This document shows, in pieces, positions 2,813 to 9,258 of a DNA stretch of 64,000 nucleotides (positions are counted from its first letter, which is position 1; each line of letters begins with the position of its first letter). Below the pieces are notes generated by a model. The model was not told the DNA's origin, did no database searches, and saw only the letters and a list, made by a program, of their open reading frames with translations. Position numbers and translations under genes: made by a program. The DNA comes from Streptomyces sp. ISL-87 (GTDB lineage: Bacteria; Actinomycetota; Actinomycetes; Streptomycetales; Streptomycetaceae), in assembly GCF_018614095.1 (NCBI RefSeq), contig NZ_JAGGOY010000007.1:1-64000 (forward strand). Direction: 5' to 3'.

Positions 2813-3033
2813 AGGCATGGACACCCAGCGGAGCCCTCGCCACGAACATCGAGATCACCTCGACCAGCGTGCAGCGCGGCGACGTCATCCAGATCGGCGG
2901 CCAGCCGTGCCGCGTCGTTGACCTGATCCAACTGCCCACCAGCGCCAAGCGACTGTGCTTCGAATCAGGTGAGCAGCTGACCATGCACGCCCGGACTCGC
3001 CTCGTGGCCCTTCGGGTGCGGAGGCAGTGGTGA
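2809..3033 (+). CDS. Small hypothetical protein, AICE operon
   Basis: A 74-residue protein starting at GTG 2809, which overlaps the previous stop as GTGA. It reads MKAWTPSGALATNI and then a beta-rich core with DVIQIGGQPCRVVDL, reminiscent of small KOW/SH3-like barrels, although I cannot assign a family. The open frame extends further upstream, but the overlapping GTG is the natural start in this tightly packed operon. The next gene again overlaps at its stop. Confidence 0.55.
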   Translation: MKAWTPSGALATNIEITSTSVQRGDVIQIGGQPCRVVDLIQLPTSAKRLCFESGEQLTMHARTRLVALRVRRQW

Positions 3034-3758
3034 CTCATCCCGCGCCTTCCCGCCGGCACACCATCGCCGATGACCTTCGGAGCCAGATCTCGACGGGCCG
3101 TTTGAAGGCCGGCGAACGGCTCCCCTCTGAGGCCCAACTCTCCGCCCGCTACAAGGTCAGCACGCCAACGCTGCGGAACGCCCTCGCGCTCCTCCAGGGC
3201 GAAGGCCTCGTGGAGAAGATCCACGGCAGCGGTAACTTCGTGCGTCACCCCCTCCGCAGAATCACGTACGCCGACGGCGGATGGATGCTGGAGGCGCAAT
3301 CCCCAACCGAAGAGGCCCTCCGCGTCACCGTCCGTACAGCCAACCTGCAAGCACACGGCCACCTGACCGTGCTGCTGAAAGTCTCGCCCCGAAGCCCCCT
3401 GACGGAATTCCTCTGCCTCAGTCACGAGGGGAGGTCGCCGCACAGCCTGGCCCGCATCTACGTCCCCCGCGACCTGACGCCAGCCGACATCCCCGAAAGG
3501 CTGTTAGCCGCACGGCTGGCAGTGCTGAGCCCACCACTGGCCGAGGTCCAGGAAAGGGTCAGTGCCCGCCTCCCAACCCCAGACGAAGCGACGGCACTTC
3601 GAATCAGCTCGACCTTGGCCGTCCTCTCGATCACGCGCGTGGCAACCGACCCCACCGGCCGCGTAGTCGAGGCGGCCCTCCTGGTGTTGCCGGCTGACCG
3701 CGCTGATGCCGTGTTCACCACCCGCTACACGACCGGAGCCATGGGGGCGGAACGATGA
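3030..3758 (+). CDS. GntR family regulator, second copy
   Basis: About 242 residues. Residues 8-75 form a clear GntR winged helix (TIADDLRSQISTGRLKAGER, then KIHGSGNFV). The C-terminal part resembles a UTRA domain (LTEFLCLSHEGRSPHSLARI, then LSITRVATD). Either GTG 3027 or GTG 3030 may start it; the latter overlaps the previous stop as GTGA. An in-frame TTA leucine codon lies at 3504-3506, which in Streptomyces would make translation depend on the bldA tRNA. It sits fourth in the operon facing the first GntR gene, so it may be a secondary switch or an activator within the element. Confidence 0.82.
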   Translation: MTHPAPSRRHTIADDLRSQISTGRLKAGERLPSEAQLSARYKVSTPTLRNALALLQGEGLVEKIHGSGNFVRHPLRRITYADGGWMLEAQSPTEEALRVTVRTANLQAHGHLTVLLKVSPRSPLTEFLCLSHEGRSPHSLARIYVPRDLTPADIPERLLAARLAVLSPPLAEVQERVSARLPTPDEATALRISSTLAVLSITRVATDPTGRVVEAALLVLPADRADAVFTTRYTTGAMGAER

Positions 3759-4179: not shown

Positions 4180-4623
4180 ACGGCTCCGGAGGCCCCGGCT
4201 CACGCAGGTCGGCTGGTCAAGGGCGCCGTCTTTGATCAGCCGTGGATGTCAGCTCTAGGCCCAGCTTCAATACGACCGCCGGCCACTTTCACTCGTCGTC
4301 GCACCGCTCCAAAACCAGGCTGAGAGACCCGTCCTCCAGCCCGTTGCTGTCTTCGAGGTGCAGATGACTCCCATCGGGAACACCTTCCCCGGCAAGCACC
4401 AGCAGATGACCGGCGAGCGTCCTGAGACCCGCAGCGTTCGCCTCGATCACGACCTCTCCGCCCAGGCCCCGCACCTTGATCCGCGCGTCCGCCTCCCACG
4501 TGTAGACCTGCGCGACGCCATCGGTCACGGCCGCAACTTGGGTGCTCTCAACGGGGGCGCTGCTGGATTCAGAGGTCATGGGGGCCATCATGCCGCCCTG
4601 CTCACACGGCTCCGGAGGCCCCG
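4180..4623. repeat. Pair of 18-bp direct repeats flanking the Imm32-like gene
   Basis: ACGGCTCCGGAGGCCCCG occurs exactly at 4180-4197 and 4606-4623, both preceded by a CTGCTnAC-like stretch. The repeats bracket the Imm32-like gene almost precisely, as expected for a cassette gained or duplicated by short-homology recombination. Coincidence is unlikely for 18 exact bases but no mechanism can be shown. Confidence 0.6.
4289..4591 (-). CDS. Imm32-like small protein (possible immunity protein)
   Basis: About 100 residues from the ATG at 4591, preceded by GAGCAGGG; an earlier in-frame Met at 4633 lacks a convincing site. The C-terminal half, NAAGLRTLAGHLLVLAGEG then GSHLHLEDSNGLEDGS and a final LSLVLER, fits what I remember of Imm32-type immunity proteins found singly in many Streptomyces. 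No toxin gene is adjacent, so an orphan immunity or regulatory role is possible. The gene sits alone between the 18-bp direct repeats. Confidence 0.55.
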   Translation of the reverse strand: MMAPMTSESSSAPVESTQVAAVTDGVAQVYTWEADARIKVRGLGGEVVIEANAAGLRTLAGHLLVLAGEGVPDGSHLHLEDSNGLEDGSLSLVLERCDDE

Positions 4624-4718
4624 TGCGTCTCACACGTTTCAGCAGGTCAACGGATTAGAGACCGGTCGACCGGCCGTCAGTCCACGAATAGGCCGTGGCT
4701 CTAGGATGACGATCCTGG

Positions 4719-5222
4719 TCACCCTGCGCTGATGTGAGAGCAGAGACGGCGTTGTTGGTAGCCGCCGGGCACGGCCGCACCGACCGCGGCCCAAAATGCC
4801 TTGGACTCTGCGAGGTGTCCGCCAGGGGTGTGCCATGCCATGTCGGGGTGCTCGATCCGCAGCGCTGCGAGGCCGGCCGAAGCCAGGCCGCATCGCTCGT
4901 ACTCCGGCATGGTGTACGGCTGCTCGACCCAGCCGAGTCGGCAGCGGCGGCAGAGCTGATAGTCGACGCTGAACGCGAACTCGCCGTCTAGGTTGGCCGC
5001 GCGCTGACGCCAGCCAATCCGCTCCGCTGAGATCGTGTCCTGCCAGGGCGTGTCCAACTCCGGCACGTCAGGTATGCGATGCCGTCGGCCGAGACGACCT
5101 CCGCTCATCCACAGCACCAGCTCACGCAAAGGCTCTCGCCCGGACACACGTCCTACCTCATGGGCCTGACCGGCCAAGCGTCGCGCCGCCTTCTTGCCAC
5201 CAACGACTGTCATGTCACCCAT
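4719..5222 (-). CDS. Hypothetical protein with zinc-knuckle and GNAT-like C-terminus
   Basis: About 167 residues from ATG 5222, chosen because AGGA lies eight bases upstream; the longer open frame begins with unlikely sequence. The central part has CRRCRLGWVE, a single CxxC pair. The C-terminal part (YERCGLASAGLAALR, then HTPGGH, FWAAVGAAVPGGYQQR and C.HI) matches a Streptomyces family in which a short acetyltransferase-like tail follows a Cys-rich segment. The acetyl-CoA loop is not obvious, so enzymatic activity is unproven. Divergent from the reverse transcriptase gene, with a shared 144-base intergenic region. Confidence 0.55.
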   Translation of the reverse strand: MGDMTVVGGKKAARRLAGQAHEVGRVSGREPLRELVLWMSGGRLGRRHRIPDVPELDTPWQDTISAERIGWRQRAANLDGEFAFSVDYQLCRRCRLGWVEQPYTMPEYERCGLASAGLAALRIEHPDMAWHTPGGHLAESKAFWAAVGAAVPGGYQQRRLCSHISAG

Positions 5223-5305
5223 CGTTCCTCGATTCGGTGACAGGGAGGCTCTTCCGGGGGAAGAGAAGACGACCAGAGCTCCGAAGCAAGTGCGTGCGAC
5301 ACCCC

Positions 5306-5333
5306 TTGTGACTACTCTAAGTAGCCTCAGACT
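5306..5333 (+). promoter_or_regulatory. Candidate promoter of the RT-NUDIX operon
   Basis: TTGTGA (5306-5311) and CAGACT (5328-5333) are separated by 16 bases, a plausible housekeeping-type promoter. The spacer holds an inverted repeat CTACT-CTA-AGTAG (5312-5324) that could be an operator. Transcription would begin close to 5340. Confidence 0.4.
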
Positions 5334-5366
5334 CTTGGGAGGATGCCGGCAGGGGGGCGGCAGGGG

Positions 5367-6842
5367 ATGACTCAAAGATTCTTCAGGCACCTAGACATGG
5401 CCTGGCGCCGCCTGTTTAGCGGTCGCGGCCAGTCTGAAGTTCCGGACATCGTGAACTTCGCAGACATCAATGCATCATGGATGGACGTCCGATCCGGGGT
5501 GGTCACGGCTATTAGAAGTGGGCATGTAGGCCCAGACTACGTTGAGATTCTAGATACCCCAAAGAATTCCGTTGCCGTTCGGCCAATATCCCGTCTATCA
5601 GTACACGACCGCCTGGTGTACGACACGCTCGTATTCTCTATCGCCGAGCTCATAGAACCTCAACTTCAGAGTAGCGTCTATAGTGCTCGCTGGAACAATA
5701 AGGGAAAAGGGTTCTGGAGCCCAGTCAATTCCTGGGTCTCGATGCAGAAGCGCGGCGTGGAACTCATGGGTGAAGCCGATTTTCAGCTAGCACGCACTGA
5801 CGTCGTCTCCTTCTATGAGCACATAGACGTGAACACGCTCGCTATAGACATCGAATCCGTGGGAGCCAACCGACACGTAGCCGAGCGGTTGATTACCTAT
5901 CTCCGTATGTTCCAGAATTCTAGTCACGCGTGGGGAATACCTCAAGGTCCCGATGCTTCGGCAATCCTCGCAAACCTCTACCTGCTCCCCGTCGATGAAT
6001 TCATTCACCGATCCGGTATGCATTACTTGCGCTACTCGGACGACATGATGCTGTTCGATACAGAGCGAGAGGCTCTCCGTAACGCCCTCCTGGAAGTTAA
6101 TGCGATACTTCGATCTCGCCGCCTGTCGATGTCCTCCATAAAGACCGAGATTTATGACCACGCGCATTCTCTATCTCAGCTAGAAGATCTCGAAAAGGAT
6201 GCAATCAACTACGGCATACGGGTGGGCGAGTCCGGGGCTGAGGAGAGGCTCTACAAGCTATTCACGGAAGCGGTGCACGAAGTCCAGCGGGATCGCGATG
6301 TGAAGTTTTCCCTTTTTAGAATGGGGAGATTGAAGGATGATCGTGCCATTCCTTGGGTGATCAACAACCTCAAGGAAAGTCATCACCTAGCCAGTCAGCT
6401 CCTTCAGTACCTGGAGTGCTTCCCTGAGCGCCACTTGGCCGTGGAGCGGTCGTATGTGTCGATCCTACGATTGGTTTCAGGCCACAAATATGACCACCTT
6501 GAGCAGCGGATACTTCAAGCTGCTACCAGGCAGGAGATTCGATCGATTCAGATTCGCGACCTTGCATGGGGTATTTTGCAGAATAAGAACAAGTCGAACT
6601 TGCCGAGGGAGTTTGCCGCAAGGTATCTAGGGCGAGTGAGCACGGTTGCGGATGGCCAGCTTCTCCGCCGCGAGTTTGAAAACGAGTCGAATGTTAACGT
6701 GCGCCGCGCCCTGCTGGTGGCCATGTATGAAGCTAGGTCAATTTCGAGACCGATGCTCACGAATCTGGCCACGTCTGATTCTCGACTGTCATTGATCAGT
6801 CGGTATCTGCTCAAAGACCCCCTCGTCCCGCTTCCGCGATAG
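5367..6842 (+). CDS. Reverse transcriptase of the antiviral UG/Abi-like type
   Basis: A 491-residue RNA-directed DNA polymerase from ATG 5367 (purine-rich site just upstream; ATG 5343 adds eight residues). RT motifs appear in order: VRPISRLSVHDRLVYD (71-86), the catalytic TDVVSFY (D145), WGIPQGPDAS (189-198, RT4), YSDD (223-226, metal-binding aspartates) and SSIKTEIY (RT6). The retron hallmarks NAxxH and VTG are not seen, and there is no maturase or endonuclease domain. Residues about 300-490 are helical and HEAT-like (DDRAIPWVINNL, HHLASQLLQYLE), like the helical repeat C-terminus known in many UG/Abi defence RTs. The gene is visibly AT-richer than its neighbours, uses codons rare in Streptomyces (AGA, ATA), and is coupled to the NUDIX gene, so recent transfer is likely. 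A defence role is inferred; the subfamily is not assigned. Confidence 0.85.
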   Translation: MTQRFFRHLDMAWRRLFSGRGQSEVPDIVNFADINASWMDVRSGVVTAIRSGHVGPDYVEILDTPKNSVAVRPISRLSVHDRLVYDTLVFSIAELIEPQLQSSVYSARWNNKGKGFWSPVNSWVSMQKRGVELMGEADFQLARTDVVSFYEHIDVNTLAIDIESVGANRHVAERLITYLRMFQNSSHAWGIPQGPDASAILANLYLLPVDEFIHRSGMHYLRYSDDMMLFDTEREALRNALLEVNAILRSRRLSMSSIKTEIYDHAHSLSQLEDLEKDAINYGIRVGESGAEERLYKLFTEAVHEVQRDRDVKFSLFRMGRLKDDRAIPWVINNLKESHHLASQLLQYLECFPERHLAVERSYVSILRLVSGHKYDHLEQRILQAATRQEIRSIQIRDLAWGILQNKNKSNLPREFAARYLGRVSTVADGQLLRREFENESNVNVRRALLVAMYEARSISRPMLTNLATSDSRLSLISRYLLKDPLVPLPR

Positions 6843-6852
6843 GAGCAAACGG

Positions 6853-7644
6853 TTGTCTCGGCTCGTTGCCTACTTGGCGCTGGCGCTCACTGCCGGAGTG
6901 GCTAGCTTCTTCATTACGAATTCCACAATCATCAACATGACAGCAGGACTTAGTGTTGGGCTGCTGATTCCAATTCTTGATGAGGTCGCGAAGAATTGGG
7001 GTCAACTTCGGCACGTCTGGTACTCGATTCGATACCGAAGAAAGTCCATTAGAGTCTCCACGTCGTATCTTTTTCGCATACTCGTCGACGGCAAGTACCT
7101 TCTAATTCGCGGATCTCGATATGTGAATCAATTTCAACCTGTCGGGGGGGTGCATAAGGTTTCCCCGCAGGGAAGCAGCGTGCTATCGGCAATGGGGGTT
7201 ACTGACGACGATCTGATTCCCGTGGATCCTGCTAGGTATGGAGATATTCGCGTGCGCGTACCTGGCAAGATGATTGCCAAATTCTTTCACTGGTTTGAAT
7301 CAAGGGAAGGTCGCGAAGACTCTCCTTGGAGGGAGTTCCAGGAGGAGTTGGTGGCCACAGGGATTGTGTCGGTGGTGAATTTTCCGCACATCATGCATAA
7401 TTATCTTCGGCGGGAAGTTGACGTAATTCGATTTAGCGAATATGCGGATTCCCTTGAAATTCTAGTTGCTGACATATATGAACTCGTACCCAATCAGGAT
7501 CAGCTGAATGAGTTGAGGCGGCTAGCGGCCGCAGGGAATCCCGACTTGGTATGGGTATCCGCCCAACAGATTCGACGGAGAGGTGCTACTCCGGGACAGG
7601 AGCAGGTCATCGAAATCGCGGCGCACGCTCGCAGAATCCTGTAA
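6853..7644 (+). CDS. Two-TM protein with SMODS-associated-type NUDIX domain
   Basis: A 263-residue protein starting at TTG 6853; its AGGAG ribosome site overlaps the RT stop codon, so the two genes are one coupled operon. Two hydrophobic helices occur at about 5-22 and 26-43, then a basic stretch (RYRRKSIRV). The NUDIX domain runs from about 70 to 215: YLLIRGSRY, FQPVGGV (94-100), DIRVRVP (131-137) and the box E-x7-REFQEEL (150s to 165) with both metal-binding glutamates. The first glycine of the box is replaced by His. This layout resembles the SMODS-associated NUDIX family described beside CBASS-type nucleotide-signalling genes. It may hydrolyse or sense a nucleotide product linked to the RT, acting at the membrane. 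AT-rich like the RT gene. Confidence 0.75.
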   Translation: MSRLVAYLALALTAGVASFFITNSTIINMTAGLSVGLLIPILDEVAKNWGQLRHVWYSIRYRRKSIRVSTSYLFRILVDGKYLLIRGSRYVNQFQPVGGVHKVSPQGSSVLSAMGVTDDDLIPVDPARYGDIRVRVPGKMIAKFFHWFESREGREDSPWREFQEELVATGIVSVVNFPHIMHNYLRREVDVIRFSEYADSLEILVADIYELVPNQDQLNELRRLAAAGNPDLVWVSAQQIRRRGATPGQEQVIEIAAHARRIL

Positions 7645-7674
7645 GGCGAAAGATCGACAGCCGACGTGGCCCTT

Positions 7675-7824
7675 CTGTCATCCCGTCTGCCGTCGTCCCA
7701 CACGGAGTGGTAGCAGGGCAGTCGCCAGGGGCCCAGGTGGAGCGCCCCGCTGGACGAACGACCTGGGCCCCTGGCGGCTGGTCTGCTACGGCTTGCCCTG
7801 GGACGACGGCAGGCGGGATGACAG
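7675..7824 (+). ncRNA. Candidate structured RNA: symmetrical 150-nt hairpin
   Basis: Two 64-base arms (7675-7738 and 7761-7824) pair with no bulges around a 22-base loop. Counting by eye, 53 positions are Watson-Crick, five are G.U in the plus-strand RNA (7686, 7705, 7708, 7717, 7722) and six are mismatches (7701-7704, 7709, 7718). The arms begin CTGTCATCCCG and end CGGGATGACAG; the inner stem contains CGCCAGGGGCCCAGGT. It starts 30 bases after the NUDIX stop. It could be an RNA partner or template of the RT, an unusually long terminator, or a palindromic mobile element; no T-run or clear target duplication is visible. GC-rich, unlike the RT operon. Confidence 0.5.
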
Positions 7825-7931
7825 CCCACCTCAACCACAACGAGTCGGTACTCGCCGCCAGCATCTCCCGGGACATTCAGCTGAACCGCCAGACCGCCCG
7901 CGAAGCCCTGCAAGGAGAGCAGCATGAATGA
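7818..7931 (+). pseudogene. 37-residue ORF, possible remnant of an element rep gene
   Basis: ATG 7818 lies inside the right arm of the hairpin; the frame runs MTAHLNHNESVLAASISR and ends REALQGEQHE, overlapping the excisionase start by eight bases. In AICEs the gene directly before xis is normally the replication initiator (RepSA), whose end often looks like this, a helical Asn/Arg/Ala stretch. I infer that this is the surviving C-terminus after deletion of the rep/tra core. It may not be translated. Confidence 0.35.
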
Positions 7932-8124
7932 GCGTTTCCTCAGCGTCGTCCAGGTTGCCGAACTGCTTGGCACCACCGTGCGGTTCCCCCGACGCCTCGT
8001 CGAGGAGCGGCGGATCACCTATGTGAAGGTCGGTCGGCACGTGCGCATCCCGGAGAGCGCCGTGCAGGCGTTCATCGCCGCCCACACCGTCGAGCCGCGT
8101 CGCCGCCTGGGGGTGGCTGCCTGA
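7924..8124 (+). CDS. xis: Excisionase, helix-turn-helix (MerR-like)
   Basis: A 66-residue DNA-binding protein with ATG 7924 and AAGGAG eight bases upstream. FLSVVQVAELLGTTVRFPRR is the winged-helix recognition region and YVKVGRHVRIPESAVQAFI is the wing and tail typical of element-encoded excisionases. It would bind near the attachment site and direct the integrase toward excision. Its stop overlaps the integrase ATG (TGATG). Intact, unlike the integrase after it. Confidence 0.85.
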   Translation: MNERFLSVVQVAELLGTTVRFPRRLVEERRITYVKVGRHVRIPESAVQAFIAAHTVEPRRRLGVAA

Positions 8125-9258
8125 TGGCCGGTAAGCGTCGCCCGTTCGGACGGGTGCGGAAGCTGCCCTCCGGCGCTATCAGGCGCGGTACGTCGGACCT
8201 GACGGGCAGCTCCGTCCCGCACCGGAGACCTTCCGGACCAAGCGGGACGCGGATGACTGGCTCGCCGACAGGCAGACCGAGATGCGGCGCGGGGACTGGC
8301 ACGACCCGGACGCCGGGAAGGTTCGGTTCGGTCCGTACGCCGTTGCGTGGATCAAGGAGCGCGAGCTGACCAGCACCACTCGGCAGCTCTACTCCTCGCT
8401 CCTCAAGCACCACTTGGAGCCCAACTTCGGCGCCGTCAACGTGGCGGAGATTTCGACCCTCTCGTTCGGCGCTGGCGTGCTGACAAGCTCGCCGCCGGCA
8501 CCGGGCCCACCACGGTCGCCAAGGCGTACGCCTTGCTGCGGGCCATCCTGGGTACGGCGCTGTCTGACCAGATGATCAGGCGCAATCCGTGTCAGGTGAA
8601 GGGTGCGAGCACCGTGCACACCCCGGAGCGGCCGACCGCCACGGTCGAGGAGGTCTACGCCCTGGCGGCGGCGGTCCAGCCCCGGTACAGGGCGCTCGTG
8701 TTGATGGCAGGCCTGCTCGGTCTGCGCTGGGGGGAGCTGATCGGTCTCCATCGCCGGGACATCGACCTCGACCACCAGGCCGTGCGCGTCCGCCGGGCCG
8801 TTGCCGAGCTGAGCAACGGGCAGCGGGAGATCAAGGCGCCCAAGAGCGCCGCCGGCAAGCGCACCGTCACGATTCCGGGCGTGATCGTCTCGGAGATCCG
8901 GGCCCATCTGAAGGTCTACTCCGAGCCGGGTCCGGACGGGCGGATCTTCATCGGGGCCAAGGGGGCGACTCCGCGCCGGAATCACTTCAACCGGCTGTGG
9001 CACAAGGCGTGTCGGGAGGTGGGGATCAAGGGGCTGCACTTTCATGATCTTCGGCACACGGGCAACACCCTGGCCGCGTCGACGGGCGCCAGCACCCGCG
9101 AGTTGATGGCGCGGATGGGCCACCGCACCGCCCGCGCCGCGCTGATCTACCAGCACGCCAGTGCCGACCGGGATCGGCTGATCACCGACGCGCTCAGCGC
9201 GCTCGTGGAGAAGGGCACGCGGAAGGGCAAGGGGCACGCGGGGGGCACGGGAACCTGA
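8124..9258 (+). pseudogene. int: Tyrosine-recombinase integrase with two frameshifts
   Basis: Starts MAGKRRPFGRVRKLPSG, coupled to xis. Near 8174 one base is missing (GGCGCTAT where GGCCGCTAT keeps the frame), shifting to the frame of RYQARYVGPDGQLRP and MRRGDWHDPD. Near 8464 a second base is missing (TCGTTCGG for TCGGTTCGG), shifting into the frame of VRRWRADKLAAG, which then runs intact to the end. The catalytic domain is complete: GLRWGEL with the first Arg, HDLRHTGN, the later MGHRTARA and the Tyr in LIYQHA. Full length would be about 378 residues. The two losses do not cancel, so a whole protein cannot be made unless these are sequencing errors. Confidence 0.85.

Follow-up and report, generated by a model that had tools for sequence, protein, structure and literature searches.

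Reverse transcriptase and NUDIX partner

What is the function of a reverse transcriptase (RT) gene that is followed directly by the gene of a NUDIX protein with predicted membrane helices, and does such a pair constitute a new defence system? This question is raised by a two-gene operon at positions 5,367 to 7,644 of a 64,000-nucleotide stretch of Streptomyces sp. ISL-87 DNA (contig NZ_JAGGOY010000007.1, positions 1 to 64,000; hereafter the window), which an earlier note, made from the sequence alone, had put forward as a candidate undescribed defence system. We find that the RT belongs to the UG23 family and that UG23 RTs have either a NUDIX partner, as here, or a SLATT-type protein in its stead, an alternative which the earlier note had missed. 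The pair itself is a member of a catalogued family, and the useful point is the single effector swap within that family.

The RT open reading frame (ORF) spans 5343-6842 on the forward strand and contains an in-frame ATG at 5367, a start that fits many close homologues, which are 491 aa long; RT residues are numbered here from the alternative upstream ATG at 5343. The protein was matched by the PADLOC model RT_UG23 with 717 bits over positions 3-489 of 489 (the next-best model, UG32, scored 246 bits) and by Pfam RVT_1 (PF00078) with 49.2 bits for a cut-off of 29.6, in agreement with its earlier description as a UG/Abi RT. In the AlphaFold2 model (pLDDT 91.5) residues 273 to 490 form helix after helix, as had been proposed for a helical-repeat C-terminus, and HEAT_2 (PF13646) is precomputed in the RT homologues P0033 and P0096. 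The model aligns with Class 1 Abi and defence-associated reverse transcriptase (DRT) enzymes along most of its length, C-terminal region included, and the RT is predicted from this fold to belong with the Class 1 UG/Abi enzymes, which join an RT domain to HEAT-like helical repeats.

The second gene begins with a TTG at 6853, 10 nt after the RT stop codon (TAG, 6840-6842), and ends at 7644; together with an AGGAG sequence overlapping that stop codon, this arrangement upholds the translational coupling described earlier. Its product was matched best by the PADLOC model RTasNUDIX (378 bits), and also by four PADLOC "Effector, 2TM" models, PDLC00667 scoring 269 bits over residues 3-263. Pfam Sa_NUDIX (PF18167) covers residues 65-263 with 235 bits (cut-off 25) and is preceded by two N-terminal hydrophobic segments, so that the SMODS-associated NUDIX domain on a two-helix protein was correctly recognised; this is the two-transmembrane (2TM)-NUDIX architecture of Cap16, and some homologues carry the name CD-NTase-associated protein 16. 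A PDB sequence search with the NUDIX protein returned nothing credible (best E 0.15). The full NUDIX box reads Gx5Ex7REUxEExGU, with REUxEE as the catalytic core. Here the REFxEEL core is invariant, R160, E161, E164 and E165 being present in 14/14 RT-paired NUDIX proteins and 40/40 aligned homologues, whereas the leading Gx5E part is unmatched, residue 146 being S, R, N, A, H or Q (n=14) and residue 152 likewise variable among the 14 RT-paired proteins.

The foreign base composition that had been remarked upon is evident, with GC contents of 0.533 (RT) and 0.514 (NUDIX), whereas the flanks have 0.667 and 0.677. The accompanying remark on rare codons could be judged only through GC at third codon positions (0.62 in the RT gene, 0.54 in the NUDIX gene) and through TTA codons, of which neither gene contains any. 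At the operon no promoter- or terminator-like site rose above shuffled expectation.

The claim that the pair is undescribed falls because PADLOC-DB 2.0.0 (2023) already models both halves, RT_UG23 and RTasNUDIX, as components labelled DRT. The pair comes close to an already named type, although the RT model is numbered as a UG family and not as a DRT type. The PADLOC library is silent on whether UG23 goes with RTasNUDIX, and no published text on a UG23 RT with a NUDIX partner was found among the literature matches listed. In the available part of the myRT paper UG17 is given with SLATT_5 and the table names no UG23 partner (PMC8934634), and an article that mentions RT, SLATT and NUDIX is, in the portion at hand, not about UG23 (PMC7159879).

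Conservation of the pair and exchange of the effector

A contig scan with the RT alignment gave 78 loci, 25 of them clear relatives with over 540 bits to the RT profile. The other 53 (L026-L078) were excluded as distant RTs with 34-107 bits to the same profile (no match for L076); the NUDIX gene was absent from all 53, on which the SLATT profile was not run. The 46 loci with an RT were reduced to 34 distinct ones by removing 12 duplicates with identical RT C-termini. RT_UG23 occurred in 9/394 genomes of the family, 16/392 of the genus and 1/396 of the phylum, the window's own genome being counted each time and the family and genus samples overlapping.

In 32 of the 34 distinct loci an uninterrupted RT is followed directly by an effector-type gene, which encodes a NUDIX protein in 14 and a SLATT-type protein in 18. 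The RT-NUDIX pair is therefore conserved in other genomes, as had been supposed. PADLOC RTasSLATT matched all four SLATT-type partners submitted (156-244 bits). A possible effector start overlaps the RT stop or lies at most 20 nt from it in 29/32 loci and at most 30 nt away in two more; in L019 the effector can start 46 nt after the RT stop. Both the RT and the NUDIX gene are broken in L118 (genome G074), which is consistent with joint decay. Chance can be dismissed in view of the profile scores and of how well the pair is conserved; the RT-NUDIX operon is real and conserved, and it is probably functional.

In the RT tree of the 32 loci the NUDIX loci make up one side of a supported branch, corresponding to a single change of partner, with support of 100/99 when one outgroup was used and 95/99 with five other outgroup RTs. 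The one-outgroup tree nests the NUDIX clade within the SLATT loci, as would be expected if SLATT had been replaced by NUDIX. A flagged long-branch join lies at the base of that tree, however, and the five-outgroup tree leaves the basal fork open, so that the swap may have gone in either direction. RT and effector distances are correlated at 0.969 in the NUDIX group (n=14) and 0.931 in the SLATT-type group (n=18), which shows that both genes have moved together since the swap. No RT columns were fixed differently between the two partner groups.

Sa_NUDIX was present in 10/394 genomes of the family sample, in one of them (G298) as a fragment below the cut-off. Because only four of the ten have it beside a UG23 RT (G000, G217, G222 and the broken G074), the domain serves other contexts too. 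In L133 (7429-10871) and L134 (4072-8332) an Sa_NUDIX gene lies directly before a large gene; the large proteins, of 881 and 1160 aa, are 52-55% identical to each other and gave neither a PADLOC match nor a Pfam match above cut-off. This arrangement is possibly a different NUDIX-effector system. In L132 (3749-7758) an Sa_NUDIX gene adjoins a 960-aa ORF that matches TCAD9 at 70 bits and contains a stretch resembling APH at 28.7 bits.

Search for a non-coding RNA

RTs such as those of DRT9 and DRT10 suggest one way in which the operon could act: a non-coding RNA (ncRNA) within the roughly 150-nt 5' region would template a repeat complementary DNA that gates the effector. DRT10 indeed consists of an RT, a SLATT protein and an ncRNA, according to an excerpt of its description (PMC12632851). 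Upstream of the RT, close pairs of loci have 61-324 of 500 nt in common, and all 500 nt are alike among L014, L015 and L021, but no similarity was found between the main clades. The mean fold z score of the upstream stretches was -0.77 as compared to -0.30 in coding controls, a weak excess that is compatible with an RNA in some clades. Rfam searches of eight loci yielded nothing above threshold but two tRNAs, and a single match, far below threshold, was obtained for positions 4700-8200 of the window. The spacing possible in 29/32 loci leaves no intergenic gap in which an RNA could lie. Moreover, among the 50 matches listed for the RT, the alignment continues across the C-terminal region for none but the Class 1 enzymes. 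Upstream similarity, fold z scores and Rfam thus revealed no family-wide ncRNA, and we consider RNA templating improbable for UG23.

A model for the operon

The reading that we favour, at about even chances, is that the UG23 RT and the 2TM-NUDIX protein form a module that protects against phages by abortive infection, the RT producing DNA by which a membrane effector is controlled. By analogy with the Class 1 enzymes that have been tested, whose DNA is described in the available parts of two articles as untemplated and often protein-linked (PMC13174585, PMC13275509), the RT would polymerise dNTPs without a nucleic-acid template and remain joined to its product. The RT and its attached DNA would hold the NUDIX effector silent until phage replication alters or removes that DNA; the freed effector would then oligomerise and break the inner membrane, the cell dying before phage release. 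In the relatives, the SLATT-type protein would take over the job of the NUDIX protein. For DRT10, defence requires both the RT and the SLATT protein, as stated in a portion of its report (PMC12632851).

The least certain step of this scheme is the sign of the control. We prefer restraint by a guard to activation by DNA because the RT is made first, with its gene coupled to that of the effector, and because retrons reportedly work as guards of this kind, as does DRT10 in the model proposed for it. The converse, in which DNA made by the RT activates the effector in the manner of ligand signalling by cyclic oligonucleotide-based anti-phage signalling systems (CBASS), would fit the matches of the partner to the "Effector, 2TM" models, the homologues named CD-NTase-associated protein 16 and the nitrilase of DRT1, which is switched on by DNA synthesis according to an excerpt of PMC13275509. 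The order of the coupled genes, with the RT in front, speaks for restraint, however, as do the proposals for retrons and DRT10, and activation appears rather doubtful to us.

The strongest indication that the output lies at the membrane, and not in NUDIX chemistry, is that the place of the effector can be taken by SLATT-type proteins, which have no NUDIX domain. Were the NUDIX domain itself the killer, the RT product would trigger hydrolysis of an NDP-X substrate (e.g. NAD, ADP-ribose or a dNTP-like compound) and the helices would only serve as an anchor. The invariant core might be read in this sense, but it could equally reflect ligand binding, and the proteins depart from the classical NUDIX box in its leading part; a review, in the section available, further reports that Cap16 with a mutated NUDIX domain is still toxic (PMC10419184). 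Killing by the NUDIX domain is accordingly an unlikely explanation. The earlier note had conjectured that the NUDIX part may act on a nucleotide or polymer that the RT produces. A wider proposal, which we put forward tentatively, is that UG23 represents a DNA-signalling immunity, in which untemplated DNA attached to the RT would be the ligand of CBASS-type membrane effectors and a SLATT pore could be exchanged for a 2TM-NUDIX pore in one step; the function would survive such an exchange because the signal would be a generic polymer. The chances that we attach to the favoured module and to its rivals overlap, RNA templating being compatible with a guard, and add up to more than one.

Several observations weigh against the DNA-controlled membrane module or parts of it. 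Regarding the RT, group II intron RTs, matching over the RT domain, have higher Z scores than the Class 1 enzymes; DRT9 takes the second rank in Foldseek (TM score 0.40, root-mean-square deviation 18.8), DRT4 and DRT6 having TM scores of 0.52-0.56; and no priming residue was identified. Fold z scores below -2, which would favour an RNA template, were obtained for 8/32 upstream stretches versus 2/32 coding controls. A simple hydropathy scan sees both transmembrane segments in 11/14 NUDIX and 8/18 SLATT-type proteins, and Pfam SLATT models matched seven of nine submitted SLATT-type partners, all below the cut-off, the other two being without a match. The RT of L019 stops at an early TAG and is about 17 residues shorter than its sisters, and no partner was seen beside the divergent RT of L130 (222 bits to RT_UG23, without the last part of the profile). 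The correlation of RT and effector distances is expected from joint descent and is no proof of contact. The single-stranded DNA product of DRT4 is itself reported to be toxic in an excerpt of PMC13213688, and the DNA of Class 1 enzymes may therefore work without any effector. Finally, the literature matches listed include no experimental study of a UG23 system.

Genomic context

The features of the locus are collected in Table 1. Two GntR-UTRA regulators, a type of protein frequent in Streptomyces integrative elements, and an Imm32 gene lie to the left of the operon. To its right, an HTH_17 gene and an integrase that adjoins a tRNA-Gly substantiate the mobile-element neighbourhood noticed earlier. 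With such neighbours, the operon appears to lie in what is left of an integrative element. The coding sequence of the integrase is apparently spread over several frames (ORFs 8124-8369, 8282-8575 and 8347-9258), and the element may no longer be mobile, or the assembly may contain errors. No second copy of an attachment-site repeat (first 24 nt of the tRNA-Gly end, up to 3 mismatches) was found in the window, and no record in the plasmid and phage collections matched over 80% of the RT. The split integrase and the rarity of the RT in the family, genus and phylum samples could suggest that the pair is plain mobile-element cargo that plays no part in defence, or a copy in decay; yet both genes are uninterrupted with their catalytic residues present, and they are kept in pairs with RTs down to about 40% identity, which makes this explanation very unlikely.

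Table 1. Features of the UG23 operon and its surroundings, in window coordinates.
Feature	Position	Strand	Basis or remark
GntR-UTRA regulators	1442-2200 and 3027-3758	- and +	Pfam domains
Imm32 immunity-protein domain	4289-4633	-	63 bits; close to operon
UG23-type reverse transcriptase	5367..6842	+	PADLOC RT_UG23 717 bits; PF00078; start by homologue length
Motif A catalytic Asp, D153	5799..5801	+	D in 32/32 aligned loci
YSDD catalytic motif, residues 231-234	6033..6044	+	YSDD in 32/32 aligned loci
C-terminal all-helical HEAT-like repeat region, residues 273-490	6159..6812	+	AlphaFold2 model, fold match
AGGAG ribosome-binding sequence over RT stop codon	6841..6845	+	sequence
SMODS-associated NUDIX protein of 263 aa with two predicted membrane helices; start codon TTG	6853..7644	+	PADLOC, PF18167
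Predicted transmembrane segments of the NUDIX protein (residues 5-21, 26-42)	6865..6978	+	hydropathy; model helices 2-17, 24-36
NUDIX core REFQEEL, residues 160-166	7330..7350	+	residue conservation
Long inverted repeat, 73-nt arms	7675..7824		genus-wide repeat; not part of system
Excisionase-like HTH_17 gene	7924..8124	+	PF12728, 41 bits
Phage-type integrase ORF	8347..9258	+	PF00589, 67.7 bits; N-terminal part seemingly in other frames

The long inverted repeat 3' of the operon dominates a 301-nt stretch that folds with a z score of -11.4, and the downstream DNA is 75-93% alike between some NUDIX- and SLATT-type loci. This hairpin was rejected as the ncRNA of the system because the repeat is far commoner in the genus than RT_UG23: the palindromic element was matched in 104/199 genus genomes and a companion element of about 110 nt in 63/101, compared to 16/392 for the RT. 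In genomes G405, G459, G450, G452 and G301 the palindrome and the companion element share a strand, and their starts are separated by about 240-320 bp.

Comparison with known systems

At the level of the family the operon does not differ from the UG23 and RTasNUDIX components of PADLOC, both proteins having these models as best matches over nearly the whole profile; PADLOC states no mechanism. The loci with a SLATT partner (RTasSLATT) share the RT family (607-720 bits for three RTs submitted) and the gene order, and differ in forming a separate RT clade and in their partner, a SLATT-type protein of 160-170 aa without a NUDIX domain.

Among the Class 1 enzymes, DRT4/UG15, DRT6, AbiK, AbiP2 and AbiA likewise combine an RT domain with helical repeats, and 374-450 of the 499 residues of the model align with them, albeit at 10-14% identity to the UG23 RT. 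An excerpt of PMC13213688 describes DRT4 and DRT6 as systems of one gene each, whereas the UG23 operon has a separate effector gene. DRT10, with its UG17 RT, SLATT protein and ncRNA, resembles the operon in pairing an RT with a predicted membrane effector, and the idea of an RT-SLATT system fits the sister loci. According to the available part of PMC12632851, however, DRT10 has a Class 2 RT that is templated by an ncRNA located upstream of the SLATT gene in the operon, as opposed to the helical-repeat RT of UG23, its directly downstream effector and the lack of any family-wide ncRNA found. The CBASS effector Cap16, composed of transmembrane segments and a NUDIX domain, has the same architecture as the UG23 partner, but CBASS relies on a SMODS CD-NTase, whose place is taken by the RT in the UG23 operon. 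CBASS was ruled out for the window's genome, the SMODS CD-NTase domain (PF18144) having no match across its 8.14 Mb.

How untemplated Class 1 DNA defends the cell is described as unresolved in excerpts of two articles (PMC12632851, PMC13275509). UG23 contributes to this comparison a Class-1-like RT whose effector is encoded by a gene of its own, as well as two unlike effectors in one slot, and the single effector swap offers a clean handle for distinguishing a general DNA signal from a specific protein contact between RT and effector.
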